From: a virus
Reading direction: 5' to 3' (one strand)
DNA: 23,634 nucleotides
Virus record (IMG/VR): IMGVR_UViG_3300035179_000905
Coordinates: 1 to 23,634 of that record
The notes beneath the pieces were generated by a model. It was not told the DNA's origin. It saw only the letters and a program-made list of their open reading frames with translations, and did not search any database. A program made the position numbers and the translations under genes. Shown piece after piece: positions 6,870-22,734 of this stretch. Numbering within the stretch: position 1 is the stretch's first letter; each line of letters opens with the position of its first letter.

Positions 6870-8891
6870 CTAACTCACCGCTATCGCGTTGATTCCTTCA
6901 TGAATCGTGCTGAAGTCACGTGGAATAATCACAGTGGCTCCCGCGTAACGTGGGCTTGCAGTGCTGGCGTGAATGTAATCTATGATTTTCGGTTCATTGC
7001 TCAATTTTAACAGTGCGTCCCATCGCACGTCCCGCACAACGTAACGTGCTTCCAGAATGCGGTAGTAAGCGCTCAACGCGTCATTGCTTATCACAACAGG
7101 CAGTTTATCACCGGGAACAAAGCCGTTATTGCCCAACACTGTCAAATTGATGCTTTCCACAGGTTCTTTCAAGAACTCGATGAGACTTTCCGCTTTTTGT
7201 TCACATTCATGGTCGCTTTTTAGTTCTTCATCTGTTTGGCTTTCTGCATATCGTGCACCATATTTACCGATGCTCACGGAATTTTGAGCGTAACCACGAT
7301 AACTTCTTTGAGCAAAATACACGTTGTCAAAAGTGTACGTGTAATCGCTCACACCCGGGCCAACGTAAAAGTATAGGATGAATCCTTGCACATTCGTTAT
7401 GTCTGGAGAACCTACCATGCTGTCAAAATTTGCCAAGTTGATGGTGTGTTCAGTCGGGTAGCGGCCTGACACGTCACCCCCCATCCAGACGCCGTGACAA
7501 TCATACCAGAAGTAATTGTCTTCATCGGGTGCTAGGATTCTGAGACTCCAAAGGGCGTTGTAAACCGTAAGATACATCGCCCATAAGTGCAACTTATCAT
7601 AACCGTCTCTCGTCAAAATCTTGATCTGAGGAAACGTCTTTTTGATAATGTGCCCGGGCGCTCCACCACCGGAAGGAACCACACAGTTGATACTATAACT
7701 TCCAACTTTCCGGCTTGTGCTCGTACCCACAGTTCCCGGAGTGCCCGCTGCGTTCCGGCAAGACCAGCCGGTCGTGTCACTTTCCGTCCATGCATCCCCA
7801 TCTGTTGGCAACAGTAACTCCTTTTTCCCATAGACATTTATCTTGTTCTCAATGCGGTGTGCCTGAATTTTTCTTTCATAATCGCTGATTTTGTCGGTTA
7901 AGTCGACGGTGCTGGTGTACTTGTTTCGTGCGAAAACATGAACGTTACCAGCAGGGTCCACGTAACTATCAAACCCAACGATGCCTCCTACGGTAGTGGC
8001 TTTTTTGCATATTTCAAGAATCGTTGAGTACGGAACAGCATCCTCCAGCATTATGTCGTGTGTGCTAACTATGTCGTTATCCACGTCCACAAAAAGGTCA
8101 GTCAGTTGTCCGCACACGGTGTTGATACACTCTTTTATGATTGTGCGTCCATTGACGCCTTTGTACATTTTGGTCAAGAGTGCTTCTGGCGCGAGTAACT
8201 GTTGACCAAGGTCCATGCATTCAAAGGTTAAGTAATATTCCAGAGTCTGCGCGTTGCCCTTGTACGCATAGTCACTTATTACCCCTCCGAACGCTTTTTT
8301 CATGGAAGCGCCGACACGCCAAAGGTAAATGAGGATGCGATCAAACTGTGTGATCAGGCCCGTGTAAAGCCCACCATTGTTAGGTAATGCCAGGTTCGCG
8401 CCTGCCACACCCATTTCAAGCAGGGGACGTGTAATCGTGAGTTCGTGTGTTACATCTGTGGGGATAAGCATCTGATTCTTACAGATGAAAACATAATCAA
8501 ACTTCGCTGTCTTTCCCGTGCCACCCTCCACAGTTAACCTTATTTTGCTGTAGGTTTTTCCGGACAACAACGCAACGTCTAAGAGTGCAGGTGAAGTCCC
8601 TGAGGCTATGACATCCCAAGATGAACCATCATACAAGCTTAGGACCCAAGTGCCGTTTACGTCAGTTACTTTGAATTGGATTCTGGGATAACTGTCAGAA
8701 GATAAGCCCGTGAAACTTTTCTCAATTGTTCCAGCCGATTGATCGCCAGAATTAACCGTGACTATGTCGCCATCCGTGCTGAAACTCGAGGACCCCCCAG
8801 TTATTAGGCTCCATGCCTTAGCGAAGTTGTCATCCGCAAACCCCGGTCCCCTGAAAATCTCCACTCGCGCCTGCGCTTCAGCAACGCTCAA
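6870..8891 (-). CDS. Tail hub / baseplate protein with carbohydrate-binding-like domains
   Basis: A 673-aa distal tail protein. Residues ~15-138 look like a jelly-roll carbohydrate-binding module. Residues ~145-365 and 536-645 fit a split gp27-like hub of the siphovirus tail-tip type (TILEICKKATTVGG, DPAGNVHVFARNKYTSTVDL, then SVSIGKYGARYAESQTDEE and FVPGDKLPVV). A second jelly-roll-like domain (~370-530, ending YTFDNVYFAQR) is inserted between the two halves. The last 15 residues form a beta-helix-entry-like motif that recurs at the end of the next ORF. It starts at TTG 8891, overlapping the tape-measure stop as TTGA. It follows the tape measure in the usual order, so it should close the tail tube and anchor the spikes. 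Confidence 0.78.
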   Translation of the reverse strand: MSVAEAQARVEIFRGPGFADDNFAKAWSLITGGSSSFSTDGDIVTVNSGDQSAGTIEKSFTGLSSDSYPRIQFKVTDVNGTWVLSLYDGSSWDVIASGTSPALLDVALLSGKTYSKIRLTVEGGTGKTAKFDYVFICKNQMLIPTDVTHELTITRPLLEMGVAGANLALPNNGGLYTGLITQFDRILIYLWRVGASMKKAFGGVISDYAYKGNAQTLEYYLTFECMDLGQQLLAPEALLTKMYKGVNGRTIIKECINTVCGQLTDLFVDVDNDIVSTHDIMLEDAVPYSTILEICKKATTVGGIVGFDSYVDPAGNVHVFARNKYTSTVDLTDKISDYERKIQAHRIENKINVYGKKELLLPTDGDAWTESDTTGWSCRNAAGTPGTVGTSTSRKVGSYSINCVVPSGGGAPGHIIKKTFPQIKILTRDGYDKLHLWAMYLTVYNALWSLRILAPDEDNYFWYDCHGVWMGGDVSGRYPTEHTINLANFDSMVGSPDITNVQGFILYFYVGPGVSDYTYTFDNVYFAQRSYRGYAQNSVSIGKYGARYAESQTDEELKSDHECEQKAESLIEFLKEPVESINLTVLGNNGFVPGDKLPVVISNDALSAYYRILEARYVVRDVRWDALLKLSNEPKIIDYIHASTASPRYAGATVIIPRDFSTIHEGINAIAVS

Positions 8892-9565
8892 GCTTGCCCC
8901 ATCCTCTTAAGCCTATCCACAAGATAATCCATGTCGCCCCTATTGCGGAAAACAGGGTCATTCAACATTACGGTCATGCCGCCCGGGGATCCGCCCCTGA
9001 CGACATCATACGCAGTGGTTCCAGCAGTCATGCGTGGAACAACCTCGCCACCATGCAAGTAGTACAGGCCTGGCTGAGTAACCAAGCCACCGAACTGCCT
9101 ACCGGCGTACGAACCGAGCGCGGTTGGTGCGCCTCCACCCATCCCGCCTCCCGTTGAAAAGTAGTATGTCAAACCCCCCACTGCCGCTGCTGCCGCGAGC
9201 ATTATGGGCACAGCCACACCCCAACTGGCTACCGCGTTTGCAATGAAGTGTGCCACTGCCCTTGCGTGCTCAGCTATCGTGACGACCCATGATGCTTGAC
9301 TTAACGCCTGCAACGCTGAAGTTAATGATGACACGATGTTTGCAATGCGTAAAGCCGCTCCCACGGTTTGCATCACTCCCGCGAACTCTTTCCCTATCGC
9401 GCTGCTGTTGAAGAGTAAGCGGTTCATCTCGTTGATGCTGTAGCCCAAGCCCATGAATTGAAAGCTCAAGCCACGAAGGTTAACCTGAATCTCGTCAGCA
9501 GTCTCCTTAATCAAGTTGCGCGCGGAAAATGTGATTACAACACGCTTTTCGACTTCTTCAGACAC
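8888..9565 (-). CDS. Short tape-measure-like tail protein
   Basis: A 225-aa protein at the usual tape-measure position, between the chaperone-like gene and the hub. Residues ~20-110 are helical. Residues ~113-135 form a hydrophobic alanine-rich segment, followed by a glycine-rich linker. Residues 171-178 (HGGEVVPR) match the short conserved element found near the C-terminus of many tape measures. The family is normally 500-1500 aa or longer, so this one is very short; at ~0.15 nm per residue it predicts a tail of only ~30 nm. It starts at GTG 9565 behind GGAGAGG. A strong hairpin lies 21 nt before the start. Confidence 0.7.
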   Translation of the reverse strand: MSEEVEKRVVITFSARNLIKETADEIQVNLRGLSFQFMGLGYSINEMNRLLFNSSAIGKEFAGVMQTVGAALRIANIVSSLTSALQALSQASWVVTIAEHARAVAHFIANAVASWGVAVPIMLAAAAAVGGLTYYFSTGGGMGGGAPTALGSYAGRQFGGLVTQPGLYYLHGGEVVPRMTAGTTAYDVVRGGSPGGMTVMLNDPVFRNRGDMDYLVDRLKRMGQA

Positions 9566-9585
9566 TTCAACCCTCTCCTAAGACA

Positions 9586-9617
9586 CTTCTTGCGTAGATT
9601 GCAACCTACGCAAAAAG
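9586..9617 (-). repeat. Palindromic element, copy 1 (26-bp inverted-repeat partner at 16372-16397)
   Basis: Plus strand 9592-9617 is GCGTAGATTGCAACCTACGC followed by AAAAAG. This 26-bp string occurs exactly, in reverse complement, at 16372-16397. The core is a near-perfect palindrome around TTGCAA. As minus-strand RNA (the operon sense) the full 9586-9617 region forms an uninterrupted 13-bp stem, counting G-U pairs, with a UUGCAA loop. It overlaps the stop codon of the gp10-like gene and ends 21 nt before the tape-measure start. Confidence 0.85.
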
Positions 9618-9956
9618 AGCCTCACTAACACTCGCGGTTAATTCTTGCCACCTTTCCATGATGGTTTGCCAGGCGTGAGTCATGAACAACCTCGCTGGAA
9701 TAAACCGTGTCCCAAACTCTTGGTAAACCGCGTAAGCAGCCCCCGCGAATATTCGGTACCCCTCTTCTATTCTGTCCCAACCTATGCTGGCTCGGAGCCT
9801 TCCAGTACGAACCGGAGCCTCACTTCTCGCACGCTCCACAGCATTGTCCACAATATCCTGCATTCGATTTAACGTCTTTTCTTTGATCTCATCATTTAAG
9901 CTTGCAAGCCAACTTGCCAATTCCTCAGCACCATCAACAGTCATTTCGACGCTCAT
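9606..9956 (-). CDS. HK97 gp10-like neck/tail-completion protein
   Basis: A 116-aa protein with the family signature in order: an N-terminal helix (DGAEELASWLASL), a long helix (NRMQDIVDNAVERARSEA), the hallmark PVRTGRLRASI, then YAVYQEFGTRFIPARLF and a final helix. Members sit at the head-tail joint or aid tail completion. The ATG overlaps the chaperone-like gene's TGA by 4 nt (ATGA), and its own stop lies inside the repeated hairpin. In many siphoviruses this gene precedes the tube gene; here it lies after the tube and chaperone and directly before the tape measure. Confidence 0.85.
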   Translation of the reverse strand: MSVEMTVDGAEELASWLASLNDEIKEKTLNRMQDIVDNAVERARSEAPVRTGRLRASIGWDRIEEGYRIFAGAAYAVYQEFGTRFIPARLFMTHAWQTIMERWQELTASVSEALFA

Positions 9957-10493: not shown

Positions 10494-11327
10494 TTATGCG
10501 ATTGCTAGCGTTTTGGCTGTCCATGGTAACCGTTGGGGCACAACCTCGACAGGCTTAGCAGCGAAGCGTCCCGCGTCAAACTTGCAGTTGTTGAAAGTAA
10601 ACGTGTCTGAGCCTACGGTGAACACAAGTGTAAACTCTGTGGCTCCGGTAACTTTCGCAAGTAGGGCGGAATCCATGTAAGCAACGGTTAACTCTCCGCT
10701 GAGCTGTCTCTGTCTCTCTATCAGAAACTTTAACAGGTCGCCGCTCGTGCTTCGAATCACCGGAAAACGCTGCAAGTTGTTGTTCACGGTGAAGTGCCAA
10801 TCCGTGAGCGCGTCTATCACGGCTGCGTCTAAGGTTGCTTGAGTGTCGTACCAAGTCTTGGGTACTGTTCCCGGGTCGTTCGCGTACGTTGCGCCGCTTG
10901 GGTGATTTGTGCTCATAGCAACGTCTTGCAGTATTATATCCGGTTTCACGGTTACTTGCTCGTTCACGCTAGCGGAGACTGTTAAAGCGTTGATCATCCC
11001 GCCCTTGTTCAAGTAACTGTTTATCAGCGAGCCTTTTTCAAACCAAGTTTCTAGGCTAAAGTCGTTGAGGTCTTTGACGAAGTGTAGAAAAGTCTTGTTT
11101 TGATACGCGTACTGCAACGCCACGCCATACTGCGCCAAGCCTTTCAGGATGTACGTTAAGTCTCGCGTTCCGATGCCTGGAAGCTTAATCAAGCCCCGGT
11201 CATAGCTGGGTTCCACGTTCTGGATTATGCCAATCCATAAGAACGTGGGATTTGTGGGCGTTTGCCCATACGTTACCTCTTCAACGTACTGTGCCTTTAC
11301 CGCTGCACCTGTATATGGTGTACTCAA
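10494..11327 (-). CDS. Major tail tube protein
   Basis: A 277-aa protein with a tube-protein N-terminus (VKAQYVEEVTYGQTPTNPTF, then WIGIIQNVEPSYD and GIGTRDLTYILKG). It then has alternating beta segments and an insertion (~130-165), ending in a strand-rich C-terminus (ATEFTLVFTVGSDTFTFNNC, QRLPWTAKTLAI). This is the pattern of siphovirus-type tube proteins, which stack as hexameric rings. It lies between the terminator-like gene and the chaperone-like gene, as expected. The presence of a tube, and no sheath, argues for a non-contractile tail. Confidence 0.8.
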   Translation of the reverse strand: MSTPYTGAAVKAQYVEEVTYGQTPTNPTFLWIGIIQNVEPSYDRGLIKLPGIGTRDLTYILKGLAQYGVALQYAYQNKTFLHFVKDLNDFSLETWFEKGSLINSYLNKGGMINALTVSASVNEQVTVKPDIILQDVAMSTNHPSGATYANDPGTVPKTWYDTQATLDAAVIDALTDWHFTVNNNLQRFPVIRSTSGDLLKFLIERQRQLSGELTVAYMDSALLAKVTGATEFTLVFTVGSDTFTFNNCKFDAGRFAAKPVEVVPQRLPWTAKTLAIA

Positions 11328-16419: not shown

Positions 16420-17313
16420 TTACGTCGTAGCCAAGCCTGTTATTCGGGATATGCATTCTCCATTCAGCACAACGGGCGCGTACCTCGTGCTCAGAATCAC
16501 TTCTACGCTGTCGAACTCTTTCACCATGTTAATGTCGGTCATCAATGGTCGCTTGATGATGAAGAATCCCATTGGCGCGTATGAGGCACTCAGGTTCTGG
16601 CCCGTGCTCACAACATACGCCGTGCCAGCTGAGCAAACATTGCTGACGTACAGGTTCAGGCCGTACACTTGGCCGATGGCGCCTGTTTGTATGACTGCTT
16701 CGCCATATTGTGAGGCAAGAGTGAACTGGGGCAGATACTTCAAGTCCCTAGCGTTTACCGGGTTGCAGATGAGTGAGTCGGCAACAAAGTTGTAACTTGC
16801 AATCTTAGCCTCAGCCCACAGAATGTCTTTCGTGCCTATACCACCCGCGATGGTGAACTCTGTGCCCGTGGCGCCTAGACTCAGACCGCTTCCTGCTGAT
16901 GTGCTTGCAGCACCGGCGCCGATTACATTCATGCAGTCAAGGTCTATCGTGTAGGCCATTCGTCTCGCGAGTCGTCTAAGCTGGTCTTCGATGACGGCAA
17001 TGTACAGGTCTTCTATGTTCTCCCGTGTCACCCGCTGTCTCTGACCTTTCTTGTAAGGCGTGACGGTTACGGTTGAGTAAGGCGTGAAATCCATCATTAT
17101 CTCCGCGCCTTCGCTTGACTCGCTTATGGCGGCGCTTCTGGAACCTGATTGTTTCACGAACGTAGCGGTCTTACCTGCGACAAGTGGAAACTCTGGAAAG
17201 AGTTTCTTGACGACGAGCGCGGGCATGGTTAATTCGATGATTTTCTTGTGAAGTGACGGATACTGAACGGCTCCTGTGTCAATCCAAGAAAGTGCATCTC
17301 TTACAAAGCTCAT
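16420..17313 (-). CDS. Major capsid protein (HK97 fold)
   Basis: A 297-aa capsid subunit. It has the usual order of parts: N-terminal helix (~1-35), an extended E-loop-like stretch (~45-100, AISESSEGAEIMMDFTPYST), the spine helix (ENIEDLYIAVIEDQLRRLAR, ~98-117) and the A-domain with VNARDLKYLPQFTLASQYGE, then GQVYGLNLYVSNVC. It ends with the strand-rich P-domain (NMVKEFDSVEVILSTRYAPV). There is no long N-terminal delta domain, consistent with a separate scaffold made upstream. AAGGTG lies 8 nt before the ATG. It follows the protease/scaffold and decoration genes in the canonical order. Confidence 0.88.
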   Translation of the reverse strand: MSFVRDALSWIDTGAVQYPSLHKKIIELTMPALVVKKLFPEFPLVAGKTATFVKQSGSRSAAISESSEGAEIMMDFTPYSTVTVTPYKKGQRQRVTRENIEDLYIAVIEDQLRRLARRMAYTIDLDCMNVIGAGAASTSAGSGLSLGATGTEFTIAGGIGTKDILWAEAKIASYNFVADSLICNPVNARDLKYLPQFTLASQYGEAVIQTGAIGQVYGLNLYVSNVCSAGTAYVVSTGQNLSASYAPMGFFIIKRPLMTDINMVKEFDSVEVILSTRYAPVVLNGECISRITGLATT

Positions 17314-17324
17314 TCAAGAACACC

Positions 17325-17723
17325 TTACCAAAGAAGTATAACGCCGGTGGCACCGCTTGCGATTGCCTCGACAGCATGGCCTACTACTGAAGTGTTTTTG
17401 CTCGTATTATCTGTTTGAACGCGTCCCTTGTTGACTTCACTGCCTGCTTGCGCTGAAGTTAATTGGTCGCCTGCGGCAATCGCACCATACGCTGTTGCTC
17501 GGCATAGACCTCGGCATACAACGCTTACTTTGCCGCCATTTACAGCTGAAGTCATTGTTATGCCAACGACCTTAAGGCTGTTAATAGCGGTCGGTCTCTT
17601 TACCGTCCAAGCGGCTGTTAATTCCACAAGTAAACCCATAGCAAGGTCTTCGCCAGCTATCATGGTGACGATGTAGCGGTCTGCAATGAGTGGACTTGTT
17701 CCTTCTAAAACTGGAGTGGACAA
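17325..17723 (-). CDS. Capsid decoration-like protein (DUF2190-type)
   Basis: A 132-aa beta protein between the protease/scaffold and the major capsid gene, where decoration proteins usually lie. The pattern AGEDLAMGLLVELTAAWTV, then KVVGITMTSAVNGGKVSVVC, AYGAIAAGDQLTSA and ASGATGVILLW fits the DUF2190/gpD-like fold that trimerises on HK97-type capsids. The start is TTG at 17723 with AGGTGA about 6 nt ahead. It is separated from its neighbours by only 11 nt on each side, so it should be made together with the capsid protein. Confidence 0.75.
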   Translation of the reverse strand: MSTPVLEGTSPLIADRYIVTMIAGEDLAMGLLVELTAAWTVKRPTAINSLKVVGITMTSAVNGGKVSVVCRGLCRATAYGAIAAGDQLTSAQAGSEVNKGRVQTDNTSKNTSVVGHAVEAIASGATGVILLW

Positions 17724-17734
17724 ATCTTTTCACC

Positions 17735-18232
17735 TTACTTGAATCCGACGAGTTCAGTACGGGCCTTGCACAAATCCTTGAACCAGTCCATGTTGCCTAA
17801 CGCGTCCTTTCTGACTTCCTCAATGGCGACTATGCCTTGACCAGTTGCACGCTTCGCCTCATTTTCACCTTTCGGAATCGTTGGAACTTTTCCTTCTTGT
17901 TCCCCTTCTTCCCGAGTTTCTTCCGCCCCAATACCTTGATCCGCCAGTTTCTTGCCGAGGTCAGCGATTTTCTTGCTTAGATTTCTCTTGGTGGCTCTCT
18001 TCGCAAGATCCGCCTCTAACTCTGCAACTTTCTTTGTGAGGGCCTCAACTTCCGCGTCTGATGCTGAAGGAGTCTCCCGCAGTTTGTTCTCGACCTGTGT
18101 AAGTCGAGTCATCATTTCTTCATATGTCACTTGCTTAGGAGCTTGCTCTCCAGGTGCGACGTTAACTATACCTTGTGCTTGATGTGGAGAAGCCTTTTTG
18201 TCTGCTTGCTCTCCTGTTTGAGGAGTAGACAT
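17735..18232 (-). CDS. Nested in-frame scaffold protein (internal start)
   Basis: Within the protease gene, ATG at 18232 (residue 223, MSTPQTGEQADKK) is preceded by GGAGGTGA with a 5-nt spacer, the strongest ribosome-binding site I saw in the window. It is in frame and would yield a 165-aa protein comprising only the coiled-coil scaffold and capsid-binding tail. This matches the lambda C/Nu3 arrangement, where scaffold is made from an internal start within the protease gene. Separate production would supply the excess of scaffold needed for prohead assembly. This is inferred from the start site and domain boundary. Confidence 0.7.
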   Translation of the reverse strand: MSTPQTGEQADKKASPHQAQGIVNVAPGEQAPKQVTYEEMMTRLTQVENKLRETPSASDAEVEALTKKVAELEADLAKRATKRNLSKKIADLGKKLADQGIGAEETREEGEQEGKVPTIPKGENEAKRATGQGIVAIEEVRKDALGNMDWFKDLCKARTELVGFK

Positions 18233-18898
18233 TGGCTTCACCTCCCGTGTTTCATTTTGTTTGTTTTCAGGTTCTTGCAGCTCACGCTTAGAACCCACAT
18301 TTTTGTTACTTTCCAGTAACTTTGAACAAGAGCATTGTGCGCATGAAGTTAAGATGGCATCATGTTGACTCTCATTCATGGCAGCGCCGAAACCCACAGG
18401 TTTAAACACCGTATTCTCGTATGCCGGGGAAGCCACGATGCTAAGTTCCCGCACTTTCGGCTTATGCACAATTTCCCACGCTCCGGGACAAAGATGAATG
18501 AGCATGCCCTCTTTTCGTGACGGTCGCTTACACTTACTGCATTCGACATCCTCACTATCAACCTGAGCGGAAACGTGGGTAACGTAATTGCGCAAAATTT
18601 TCTCGATGAGTTTCTCTTCACCAACTTCAGCACGGTACAGGACTTGAGTACCTACGCGCTTAGCTTCGCCGACTTTCCCGACAATCATCAAGGCGCTTTC
18701 CGCATGGTCTACACGGAGTTGAGCATTTTGCAAGGTCGCAGTAAAGAAGTCTAAGTCTTCCTCTGGTACTTGCCATTTATTGGCGTTGACGCTTGTATCT
18801 ATCGCTATGCCCTCAATGTTTAGAAGTTTGTTCTTTAGAGCGTCCTCTATTAAAACCCCGCTTTGGGCTTTGAAGGGCATATAATAACGGAGTTGCAT
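17735..18898 (-). CDS. Prohead protease fused to scaffold domain
   Basis: A 387-aa fusion. Residues ~1-170 are an HK97-type (U35) maturation protease: the likely catalytic histidine is H65 in LRVDHAES and the nucleophile S153 in RELSIVASPAY. Between them sits a possible metal-binding insertion, C120-x2-C123 with H135-x-C137, unusual for the family. Residues ~180-225 are a Cys- and Glu-rich linker. Residues ~250-325 form a coiled coil (YEEMMTRLTQVENKLR, VEALTKKVAELEADLAKR) typical of scaffolds, and the tail (~365-387) would bind capsid. GAGG lies ahead of the ATG. The protease should cut scaffold and capsid during maturation. An internal start makes the scaffold alone. Confidence 0.85.
   Translation of the reverse strand: MQLRYYMPFKAQSGVLIEDALKNKLLNIEGIAIDTSVNANKWQVPEEDLDFFTATLQNAQLRVDHAESALMIVGKVGEAKRVGTQVLYRAEVGEEKLIEKILRNYVTHVSAQVDSEDVECSKCKRPSRKEGMLIHLCPGAWEIVHKPKVRELSIVASPAYENTVFKPVGFGAAMNESQHDAILTSCAQCSCSKLLESNKNVGSKRELQEPENKQNETREVKPMSTPQTGEQADKKASPHQAQGIVNVAPGEQAPKQVTYEEMMTRLTQVENKLRETPSASDAEVEALTKKVAELEADLAKRATKRNLSKKIADLGKKLADQGIGAEETREEGEQEGKVPTIPKGENEAKRATGQGIVAIEEVRKDALGNMDWFKDLCKARTELVGFK
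18238..18245 (-). promoter_or_regulatory. Internal ribosome-binding site for nested scaffold
   Basis: The minus strand reads GGAGGTGA, an 8-nt complement to the conserved 3' end of prokaryotic 16S rRNA, five bases before an in-frame ATG in the middle of the protease/scaffold gene. It decides the start of the nested scaffold product. Confidence 0.75.
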
Positions 18899-19495: not shown

Positions 19496-20884
19496 CTAGT
19501 CCTCGCTTTGCAGGGCTTCAACGACGCCATCAACAACCTTCCTGCTTTCGCTCTTGGGCTTCGGAGCAGGGAGCATGTTTGCAGCTGCTAACATCTCATC
19601 CGTCGGCTGTTCCGGGTAGCCGAGCTGAGGGCGAGCTTCAGACGGAAGAATAATGCCCTTCTCGACCAGGTCACCTATAAACTTGGCCTTGGTATCCAAT
19701 GTGGGCTCCCATATGGGGCGCCATTTAATGTGCGGCACTTCTTGGTCCTCGCCAAACTTGGCCTGGATAAGCTGCTTGAACAGTTCGGTCTCAAGCATGT
19801 CCCCCATGAGTTCTTGGAGCATGCGCAGCCGCGTCACGTACTCTTGCATCACGATCTCAGCCGTGGCCCGGTTCGTCCGCTCGCTTTCACCCAGGAAGAT
19901 TTTCGGAACACCTAGAACGGCTTCACGTTGCTTGTACAGATAGTCGAGCCACCATTGAATGTTAACGTCTTTCGTCAGGCTGGGAACGACATCAACCGTT
20001 ACGTCTCCTCGCACGAATACGTCGGTAGCGGGTTTGCGGTCGCGGAAAGCTTCGACAAGACCTTGCAACTGCGGATCGCTGAACGGCCTCTCGGGAGTGC
20101 CGGCCTTCACAACGAGCATGGGCTTAGCGTAAGTGTGCACAATAATGGCCATATCGTCTTCAAGCTGATCAATCAGAGCCTGAATCTTCAGCAAGGGCCT
20201 TAACTGGCTAGTGCCATAGCTGAACTCGTACCACCAGCTTTTAGCGCCCCAGCGAAAATGAACAATGTCCTGAGCTGTGAAGACGACAGGAGGGAAGGTC
20301 AGCAATTGGATGTAGCCAAACACCTGGCCGTAGGCGTCACGCCTTACGCGTATATGCACTGGATCAAGAGGCTTAAGCCACCACTCTTCAGGCGGCAAGG
20401 CTTCTTCTCGGCAAATCTCAAACTCTCCATTTCCAAAAACAAGCATATCTGTGGCCGTGATCCGCAGAGTCTGCAGAATGTTATGTTCATCAAGCCAATC
20501 CGTGAGCCACTCGCGGACGGAGTCATTCCCACCCTCCAGCTCGAACCCATTACTGACGGCCAGGTTTACCGTAACATCAATACATGCCTTGACGTACGGC
20601 GTGAACGTGTAAAGGTCCTTGTATTTCGGTAGGTCCTCGATCGGGACAGCGCCCCAGACGCGCTCCCAGTACGCTGTGTATGGAGGCGTCACGAAGCCAG
20701 CGCCAGAGCCCTTAAGCACATAGCGAGTAACATAGCCCCACAGCATGCCGTCAGCTTTCCAGCTAACCGGGATCTCCTCTTCAACCTGCCGTTTACTTAG
20801 GTCTGGCGGAACATGGCGCTGAGCAACAAACGAAGCCGAAAACTGTCTGATTACTTTACGAACTCTCTTAGCCAAGAAACTCAT
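19496..20884 (-). CDS. Portal protein
   Basis: A 462-aa portal that forms the DNA entry ring at one capsid vertex. Family landmarks: TPYVKACIDVTVNLAVSNGF (clip/wing entry), LVFGNGEFEI, VHIRVRRDAYGQVFGYIQ, DIVHFRW, then the stem and crown region KQREAVLGVPKIFLGESERT and ATAEIVMQEYVTRLRMLQEL. Length is normal for HK97/SPP1-type portals. It follows the large terminase by 49 nt and is followed by the protease/scaffold block, the standard packaging-head order. AAGGTC lies ahead of the ATG. Confidence 0.9.
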   Translation of the reverse strand: MSFLAKRVRKVIRQFSASFVAQRHVPPDLSKRQVEEEIPVSWKADGMLWGYVTRYVLKGSGAGFVTPPYTAYWERVWGAVPIEDLPKYKDLYTFTPYVKACIDVTVNLAVSNGFELEGGNDSVREWLTDWLDEHNILQTLRITATDMLVFGNGEFEICREEALPPEEWWLKPLDPVHIRVRRDAYGQVFGYIQLLTFPPVVFTAQDIVHFRWGAKSWWYEFSYGTSQLRPLLKIQALIDQLEDDMAIIVHTYAKPMLVVKAGTPERPFSDPQLQGLVEAFRDRKPATDVFVRGDVTVDVVPSLTKDVNIQWWLDYLYKQREAVLGVPKIFLGESERTNRATAEIVMQEYVTRLRMLQELMGDMLETELFKQLIQAKFGEDQEVPHIKWRPIWEPTLDTKAKFIGDLVEKGIILPSEARPQLGYPEQPTDEMLAAANMLPAPKPKSESRKVVDGVVEALQSED

Positions 20885-20933: not shown

Positions 20934-22232
20934 TTAGTGTGAAAGCATAACTGCACCTTTTCCTGGGGGAGGCGCCTGCGTGGAAGCGTAAACCGCCAAC
21001 GCCAGGCTCCAGAGCATGTCATCATGGCTGTTTGGGGGATGGCTAAACTGTAAGTGTCCGCTCTTGCTGTATTCAAATTGCTGTTCATTGATTTGTTGAC
21101 AAAGCTGTCTATGATATGGTATTGCTAAGCGATTCTGTTCCATGGCAATTTTCAGAGTTGTGAGTAGATCTTCCTTTGCTTGAAGCGTGAACGTCAAGCC
21201 CTCAGCACAAGTTACGCCTTGGTTGCGGGTCTCTTCTAGAACGGGTTCTCCCAGACCCGTTTGATCTACAAGAACCAGATGAAACTGGAATTTTTGTTGT
21301 GCACGTACAAGATGGCCTATTACATGAGTATAAGGCGTTCCGAGTGGAAACTGATGAATGTAAATGAGTTTGAGTTTTTCGCCTTCACGTTTTAGGACAG
21401 ATATGACCGAGTAGTCTTGTAGCTTGCCGAAATCGACACCGGCATAGTAATCGCCGCTTGGAAGTTTTAATTCTAGGTTGATGCATAGTTCAAGTCCGAT
21501 TTCTTGTGCAAGCTCGACGCATCCACGGATAAGGTCTTGTGGGAAATAACTGTTTAAGGCTTCGATGAACTCGGCTTCATATTCCATTAGGTAGGCGTCG
21601 CGGGTCATGTTAGCTTTCATTTCTTCAAGAAATTCCGGCTTAATTAGTGGGCATTCACTAGATTTTACTTTGTGCACGCTGTAAGCGGGGTTGACGAACG
21701 CTCGATAAAAGAAATGCTCCTTGCCCCAGGGCGTGCCTAGAAAGATTGCGTAACCATCTGTTGTACTGAGCATCGGAAAGAGGACCTGCGTGATGACTTC
21801 TTCAGGCATGAAACCTGCTTCATCCGAAATCACTATTTGTGCTGTGTAACCACGCAGCAAGTTTTGACTGCACGGTAAGGCTATTATGCGAGTGCCATTG
21901 TCGAAATGGATTAGAGTTCTTGTCGCTCTTCGAATTCTATTTCTCAGGCGCGGTTTGGAGTAGACAAAGTCCGCCATGCGGTCGAACATTATCATGCTTT
22001 GACGTAGGCTCGGAGACGTTATCAAAATGGTCACATTCGGATTTGTCTCTGCGAGGTAGATAGCTTTCATGGCTATTGTTGTTGTTTTGCCTGTTTGGCG
22101 GCCCATACAAGCAACTATACGTTTGCTTGGATCCCTGAGCAATTCAGCTTGATACGAAAAGGGCTTCATGCCCAGAACTTTCTCGGCGTAATCCACAGGG
22201 TCTTTGACTTCGATATCTCTTTCGCGTTGCAT
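20934..22232 (-). CDS. terL: Terminase large subunit
   Basis: DNA-packaging motor with ATPase and nuclease. With the ATG at 22232 (432 aa): Walker A GRQTGKT (44-50), Walker B IVISDE (~133-138), a coupling-type motif FLGTPWG, and nuclease acidic residues in YYAGVDFG (D267), LVDQTG (D323) and HDDM (D404/D405). The open frame continues to ATG 22349, but that would overlap the small terminase by 101 nt, so the shorter start is preferred; its ribosome-binding site is weak. It works with the portal and small terminase. All catalytic positions appear intact. Confidence 0.9.
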   Translation of the reverse strand: MQRERDIEVKDPVDYAEKVLGMKPFSYQAELLRDPSKRIVACMGRQTGKTTTIAMKAIYLAETNPNVTILITSPSLRQSMIMFDRMADFVYSKPRLRNRIRRATRTLIHFDNGTRIIALPCSQNLLRGYTAQIVISDEAGFMPEEVITQVLFPMLSTTDGYAIFLGTPWGKEHFFYRAFVNPAYSVHKVKSSECPLIKPEFLEEMKANMTRDAYLMEYEAEFIEALNSYFPQDLIRGCVELAQEIGLELCINLELKLPSGDYYAGVDFGKLQDYSVISVLKREGEKLKLIYIHQFPLGTPYTHVIGHLVRAQQKFQFHLVLVDQTGLGEPVLEETRNQGVTCAEGLTFTLQAKEDLLTTLKIAMEQNRLAIPYHRQLCQQINEQQFEYSKSGHLQFSHPPNSHDDMLWSLALAVYASTQAPPPGKGAVMLSH

Positions 22233-22248
22233 ATGCCTGATTTTTTCA

Positions 22249-22734
22249 TCAAGCTTCCGAAGTTTTCCTAGGCTCCTTCGCTGCTTGTAACTCTCCCACA
22301 GCAGCCTCAAGTTCTCCAATCTGCTTCTCAATCTTCTCCCACTTCTCATAACTTGCTAATAATGGACCGTAATCCTTAGCAGCCTGGAAAATTATGCGAA
22401 ACCGCTCAAGCACAAGCTTATTGACTTCCTTCGAGCTGCATATGTTCATGAAAGCCGTACTAAAGAGCTTAACAACTTTTTCCATAGTCAATGCGTCTGG
22501 AGCAGCTTCTATAGTGCTCACTATTGCGGCAGGGGAAGTGCGCACTATAGTACCGTAGCTGTGCAGTTCCTTAGCAATAGCCCGGAATGTTCTGCCAGGT
22601 AGTTTGCCGCTGTCATAGATCTGTTGAGGCGACATGCCTTGGGCGGCCATGTTCATTAACAGACTAATTTCATCATGGGTCCAAGGCTTTCCTCTAGCCA
22701 TAATTGGCGTGCCTCTGAAAGCTTCCATTTCCAT
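22249..22734 (-). CDS. terS: Terminase small subunit
   Basis: A 161-aa (or 150-aa) DNA-recognition subunit. The N-terminus has a helix-turn-helix of SANT/Myb-like character (KPWTHDEISLLMNMAAQGMS, then YDSGKLPGRTFRAIAKEL). The middle is helical (MEKVVKLFSTAFMNIC, VLERFRIIFQAAKDYG) and the C-terminus is a coiled coil (WEKIEKQIGELEAAVGELQ) for ring assembly. It lies immediately before the large terminase. The second start, ATG 22701 (MARGKPW), has GAGG 10 nt ahead and overlaps the upstream gene by only 8 nt, so it is more likely than 22734. Confidence 0.75.
   Translation of the reverse strand: MEMEAFRGTPIMARGKPWTHDEISLLMNMAAQGMSPQQIYDSGKLPGRTFRAIAKELHSYGTIVRTSPAAIVSTIEAAPDALTMEKVVKLFSTAFMNICSSKEVNKLVLERFRIIFQAAKDYGPLLASYEKWEKIEKQIGELEAAVGELQAAKEPRKTSEA

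Follow-up and report, generated by a model that had tools for sequence, protein, structure and literature searches.

A probable nested scaffold gene with conserved RNA structure at its internal start in viruses of Bathyarchaeia

Introduction

The window analysed here, an IMG/VR virus record of 23,634 nucleotides, contains one long reading frame in which a putative prohead protease is followed by a putative scaffold. It raises the question of whether the scaffold is made only as the tail of the protease or also as a protein of its own, from a start codon inside the gene, and of what might control such a start. The initial annotation proposed a scaffold with an independent start, nested in the protease gene of a probable archaeal virus. 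We evaluated this proposal using homologue alignments, structure models and the covariation of the RNA around the start. Coordinates are those of the window; the fusion gene, the features within it and the four neighbouring genes named below are all on the (-) strand.

A protease-scaffold fusion gene between the portal and capsid genes

The fusion ORF (17735..18898) encodes 387 amino acids (42.8 kDa) and has homologues, 47 in the first round and more than 120 distinct ones in all. On one side lie the genes for the portal protein (19496..20884) and the terminase large subunit (20934..22349), both assigned by Pfam and PHROG searches, and on the other those for a cement/decoration protein (17325..17723; Pfam Phage_cement_2, E 1.2e-7) and the major capsid protein (16420..17313; Pfam Phage_capsid_4, E 1.8e-8; PHROG 544). 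The fusion protein itself had no significant match in Pfam or PHROG, and a search against PDB sequences returned weak matches to coiled-coil chains and none to solved assemblins. Its identification as a protease is therefore based on structure matches. In the structure model, which is confident only N-terminally (pLDDT about 80 in that part, 58.9 overall), residues 1–160 matched T4 gp21 (5jbl; Foldseek E 4.6e-4, Z 10.2, rmsd 3.8 over 136). The next matches were herpesvirus assemblins with Z values of 6–7.5, a range in which unrelated folds were also found. In a library of viral structures, the domain matched prohead serine proteases. Among the structural families listed by the fold searches, these matches assign a predicted assemblin-like fold to the N-terminal domain (residues 1 to ~170; 18389..18898). 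The domain gave no S49 hit in Pfam, a result that is compatible with an S49 fold as well. Candidate catalytic residues, His65 (18704..18706), Ser110 (18569..18571) and Glu151 (in the motif VRELSIV; 18446..18448), are conserved in the three clades of homologues (A, B and C), and so is a zinc-knuckle-like CxxC...HxC insert formed by Cys120, Cys123, His135 and Cys137 (18488..18541), which may bind a metal.

In the C-terminal part, DSSP analysis of the model gave coiled-coil-like helices at residues 259–275 and 281–320 (17939..18124 in all). This helix content and the position of the gene between the portal and capsid genes suggest that the C-terminal part is a scaffold, which would follow the protease domain in one and the same frame. 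Four copies of the fusion gene (L184, L185, L186 and L187), all from two metagenomes, are broken by frameshifts; these probably reflect sequencing errors, and the copies were left out.

The fusion gene is also present in metagenome-assembled genomes of Candidatus Bathyarchaeota, at full length on a 309-kb contig. Together with the RNA element described below, it was found as a provirus in two of 256 genomes of the class Bathyarchaeia (G001 and G131), and when 398 genomes of the phylum were searched again for the RNA element, only G001 was recovered. The proviruses place this family of tailed viruses in Bathyarchaeia. Head-tailed viruses of Bathyarchaeia have been reported, in a paper whose main text does not mention a protease or a scaffold (PMC10848311). 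No relatives of either the protease or the capsid protein were found in 50,697 annotated phage records. In many Bathyarchaeia genomes there are further ORFs, one or more per genome, whose prohead-protease-like domain shows distant similarity (motifs HVSVGADY and AELSLVAVPG; L098-L123, e.g. L099, L101 and L122), and these ORFs often end in a conserved C-terminal RSW..GPQRMCQELR motif.

An internal ATG follows the strongest ribosome-binding site of the window

Inside the protease gene, a Shine-Dalgarno (SD) sequence, GGAGGTGA (18238..18245), is followed after a 5-nt spacer (AGCCA) by an ATG (18230..18232) that is in frame with the 387-aa ORF. The nested reading frame that begins there (17735..18232) would encode 165 amino acids with a mass of 18.0 kDa. 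The SD is complementary to the anti-SD sequence GGATCACCTCCT at the 3′ end of the 16S rRNA of the provirus-carrying genomes G001 and G131. Its duplex with the archaeal anti-SD has a calculated energy of -15.9 kcal/mol; the next best gene reaches -12.1 kcal/mol and the fusion ORF's own start -7.0 kcal/mol. The two strands of the window contain 2583 start-like codons, of which only the internal ATG is preceded by an 8-nt SD. The annotated arrangement, as well as its rank as the strongest ribosome-binding site of the window, was thus borne out, except that the start had been placed exactly at the border of the coiled coil, whereas it belongs to the linker, with about 36 residues between it and the predicted coiled coil.

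Homologues conserve a start codon rather than an amino acid

Our first scan yielded 47 homologues with 47–69% identity, and later scans extended this set to three clades with identities down to about 32–38%; all were aligned by protein. Over aligned residues, identity to the window is 38% for clade B (L096, L097, L124, L129-L136 and others) and 34% for clade C (L125). When the sequences were aligned with no pattern imposed, the codon at the internal start was TTG in 60, ATG in 59 and GTG in one of the 120 alignable distinct homologues from the three clades, with no other codon in any of them (the one remaining row, which is frame-shifted, was left out). At other positions of these genes all six leucine codons are in use, with TTG making up 15%. 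The SD region reads GAG/GAA-GTG-A in the first 43 unique homologues: its Val codon is GTG in all 43 (background 27%) and its Glu codon is GAG in 40 (background 39%). The initial annotation had expected both the SD and the Met to be conserved, and had counted homologues without the internal ATG as evidence against it. The SD and the start are conserved, but Met itself is encoded in only about half of the homologues. Those without ATG have TTG (GTG in the single case above) and never another Leu codon, and since TTG is a usable archaeal start, they leave the internal start standing.

On a phylogenetic tree, the start column underwent 11 codon changes, all between ATG and TTG, as compared with 27–45 for most Leu columns; only two further Leu columns were slow, and these are at the hairpins H1 and H2 described below. 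The 107 sequences of this tree had been selected by a pattern allowing only ATG, GTG or TTG, and we rely on the pattern-free tally instead. Around the internal start, codons -29 to +25 show unusual constraint at synonymous sites, and H1 and H2 occupy the 5′ half of this stretch. In clades B and C the linker differs, yet a hairpin, then GGAG(G/A) and then ATG or TTG occur at the same place. This conservation of codons among the homologues makes a chance origin of the internal start untenable.

We also considered whether the scaffold might be freed from the fusion by self-cleavage only, in which case the sequence EVK[P/H][M/L]S would be the cleavage site and the start-like codon would be incidental. 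The motif is indeed conserved as protein, and assemblin-type proteases cut between protease and scaffold, at the R site (PMC12474303). The constraint, however, is on the codons and not on the residues, as Leu is encoded solely by TTG and Val solely by GTG while Met, Leu and Val interchange, and clades B and C keep the SD and the start but have a different motif. Release by cleavage alone thus seems highly improbable, although cleavage may occur on top of internal initiation.

One homologue separates the two parts. In L037, an in-frame TAA lies 8 codons before the internal TTG, so that protease and scaffold form two adjacent frames, and the flanking portal, cement and capsid frames are open; because of this stop, the internal start is the scaffold's own start there, although L037 is a single metagenomic contig in which an assembly error is possible. 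At the sequence level, the conserved SD and ATG/TTG/GTG codon, together with this natural split, strongly support the proposal that a 3′-coterminal scaffold with a start of its own is nested in the protease gene.

Two covarying hairpins lie upstream of the internal start

The mRNA upstream of the SD contains two hairpins, seen both by covariation and in the minimum free energy fold of the window: H1 (GUUACU-GGAA-AGUAAC; 18305..18320) and H2 (GGGUUCU-A-AGC-GUGA-GCU-GCA-AGAACCU; 18269..18296), the latter with a conserved internal loop, A/GCA. An A-rich linker (18246..18268; 61% A in 107 sequences), unpaired in the window fold, leads from H2 to the SD. In an alignment of 33 sequences, 99.4% of the H1 and H2 cells were standard pairs and 8 of the 15 pairs had changed on both sides, a result reached by none of 500 shuffles (such shuffle counts overstate significance, as related sequences are not independent). 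When the partner strand was slid by 1–3 columns, at most 51% of the cells were paired. In a wider set, which was found with a covariance model and aligned by fitting to that model, 98.4% of the cells were paired and 12 pairs had changed on both sides. In 40 sequences, no pair of the inner H2 stem was broken, and double changes at its pairs numbered 13, 7 and 12; the outer stem showed compensated changes in L081 and L083. A search of the window against 4227 Rfam families gave no match up to E 1. By eye, the A/GCA loop fits neither the kink-turn nor the bulge-helix-bulge consensus, and these assignments of H2 were dropped.

In three different backgrounds, the ORF linker contains an inserted, perfect 17-mer resembling a tRNA T-arm (GCGGGTTCGAATCCCGC) directly 5′ of H1 (L036:6558, L063:6555, L071:4215, L074:4679, L078:6552 and duplicates), perhaps the core of an attachment site or a hairpin that was captured. 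The inverted repeats might then be supposed to act as DNA, as a packaging, recombination or attachment site, next to which such a core might be expected. It would also suit a DNA site that the element occurs once per virus, always at the internal start and nowhere else (in 89 of 90 loci, other matches being weak). Three observations speak against this: 63 of the 73 four-nucleotide H2 loops are GNRA, the wobble cells comprise 58 G-U on the mRNA strand versus 9 A-C, with the A-C cells confined to the two innermost pairs of H1, and a third hairpin, H3, pairs the SD itself. We consider a function at the DNA level the least probable of the explanations discussed here.

A third hairpin pairs with the Shine-Dalgarno sequence and the start codon

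H3 (18186..18242) involves the beginning of the scaffold coding sequence. The SD segment GGUGAAGCC pairs with GGCUUCUCC, and the SD and start codon together with GCUUCUCC, in scaffold codons 11–15. With the 3′ arm placed from the protein alignment and not from pairing, 89.8% of the H3 cells were paired and 31 were double-change cells, a number of double changes that none of 500 shuffles reached; slid controls were paired at 60% or less. The probability that the region from the SD to the start is unpaired was 0.30 for the native sequences and 0.41 after synonymous shuffling of the downstream codons only, and it was lower in the native than in the shuffled form for 107 of 107 sequences. Only in clade A is it clear that a conserved helix contains the SD and the start codon, and the innermost counted pair (columns 12–19) is unpaired in about half of the sequences. 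The window RNA alone folds into exactly H1, H2 and H3 (z -3.29; 0 of 200 shuffles). Thus H1 and H2 rest on strong covariation, and H3 on weaker covariation plus the codon-shuffle test. Because this conserved hairpin sequesters both SD and start, the strongest ribosome-binding site need not give the strongest translation, and the burial implies regulation or coupling.

Hairpins resembling H1 (CACAGTYAT..ATGAC, then AAA and an SD) occur directly before the probable major tail protein gene of some relatives (L033:10679-10718, L023:10888-10927, L028:8611-8649, L049:11567-11599 and L009:7625-7662), the window homologue of which is at 10494-11327. Since they are found in some relatives only, H1 was rejected as a leader common to all viral genes. 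Elsewhere in the window, at ~9566-9640 (-), a strong hairpin (TTTTTGCGTAG...CTACGCAAGAA) stands just before an SD and a GTG start, upstream of the gene at 8888-9565; the 75 nt upstream have a folding energy of -28.7 kcal/mol.

The three hairpins might instead belong to a shorter mRNA of the scaffold's own, generated from an internal promoter or by processing at H1/H2, and serve as its leader or processing signal. H1 and H2 have the look of a structured 5′ leader, the tail-gene hairpins likewise directly precede a ribosome-binding site, and herpesvirus UL26.5 begins in the middle of UL26 (PMC12474303). TATA-like sites, on the other hand, are not enriched at positions -210 to -60: TTTAWA was present in 17 of 107 sequences, with 13.8 expected, and two other TATA-like patterns were likewise near expectation. 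The upstream linker is, moreover, highly variable among the relatives. These observations argue against a separate scaffold mRNA, which we regard as unlikely.

Discussion

We conclude that this gene probably encodes two 3′-coterminal proteins, the protease-scaffold fusion and a free scaffold, and that its internal start appears to be under the control of structured mRNA. Initiation at the first start would yield the full-length fusion and initiation at the internal, SD-led start the free scaffold of 165 amino acids. The internal site may set the protease-to-scaffold ratio, as the initial annotation proposed; the scaffold would be expected in excess of the protease, and the shared scaffold tail would carry the protease into the procapsid. 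As H3 buries the SD and the start codon, de novo initiation would probably be weak until H3 opens. H3 would most likely be opened by ribosomes that are translating the protease portion upstream, and such translational coupling has precedent in archaea (Huber et al. 2019, cited in PMC7531240).

What the hairpins do on a translated message is not obvious, as a passing ribosome will unfold all three. H1 and H2 may be the binding site of a modulating factor or an element that positions the ribosome. As a tentative suggestion, H1-H2-H3 might be a new family of viral translational operator, with a capsid-assembly protein or a host factor on the conserved H2 internal loop tuning scaffold synthesis to how far assembly has progressed. 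Such an operator would amount to an autoregulated switch of structured RNA within the coding region of an archaeal tailed virus. The conservation of the internal start across more than 100 distinct viral sequences and the compensatory changes tell experimenters what to measure. A long-standing question, namely how a virus sets the scaffold-to-protease ratio and whether assembly feeds back on it, is opened to test, and the balance that an archaeal virus keeps between a building tool and a cutting tool becomes directly testable.

The nested layout is of a known kind, present in a few phages and herpesviruses. In the bacterial phage Mu (I/Z), the scaffold is the C-terminal part of the protease gene; in another bacterial phage, P2, protease and scaffold are fused in gpO; and the herpesvirus short form, UL26.5, has its own transcript. 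In lambda, Nu3 has its own start inside C and shares the frame and 3′ end of that gene, so that the annotated parallel with C/Nu3 holds for the layout; to our knowledge, no covarying RNA element is known at the Nu3 start. The parallel probably does not extend to the fold: Nu3 is the scaffold and C the protease (PMC3224144), and C is an S49-family peptidase (PMC10695390), whereas the protease domain here matches T4 gp21 and then the herpesvirus assemblins. UL26/UL26.5 (UL80/UL80.5) is for this reason the nearer parallel, with an N-terminal assemblin-like protease, a C-terminal scaffold and a second gene that starts inside the first and gives a 3′-coterminal free scaffold (PMC12474303). The T4 protein gp21 is the top structural match, but the T4 scaffold, gp22, is a separate protein, whereas here it is fused to the protease. 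An excess of scaffold would fit the proportions in T4, with about 580 copies of gp22 and 55 of gp21 (PMC9958956), and in HSV-1, where the long form is about 10% of the scaffold (PMC12474303).

Internal in-frame initiation in an archaeon has been proven for Cas11b, encoded inside cas8b of Haloferax volcanii, which like the present start has an SD-like motif; according to its authors, this was first proven only in 2025 (PMC11899642). In the text consulted, Cas11b is a cellular gene with a weak SD and no described RNA element, whereas the start studied here is viral, has a strong SD and is accompanied by hairpins. The literature searched contained no other nested scaffold gene with a gp21/assemblin-type protease, a weak negative as older literature is thinly covered; in that literature, the archaeal host, the SD-led scaffold nested with an assemblin-fold protease and, above all, the covarying RNA are undescribed. 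Unlike the herpesvirus short form, whose gene starts within UL26, the scaffold of this archaeal virus would arise from an SD-led internal translation start in folded RNA. The gene would then be a nested protease/scaffold gene of Bathyarchaeia viruses with a protease of the T4/herpesvirus fold and, in addition, a conserved RNA element that lacks an Rfam match and apparently controls the internal start.
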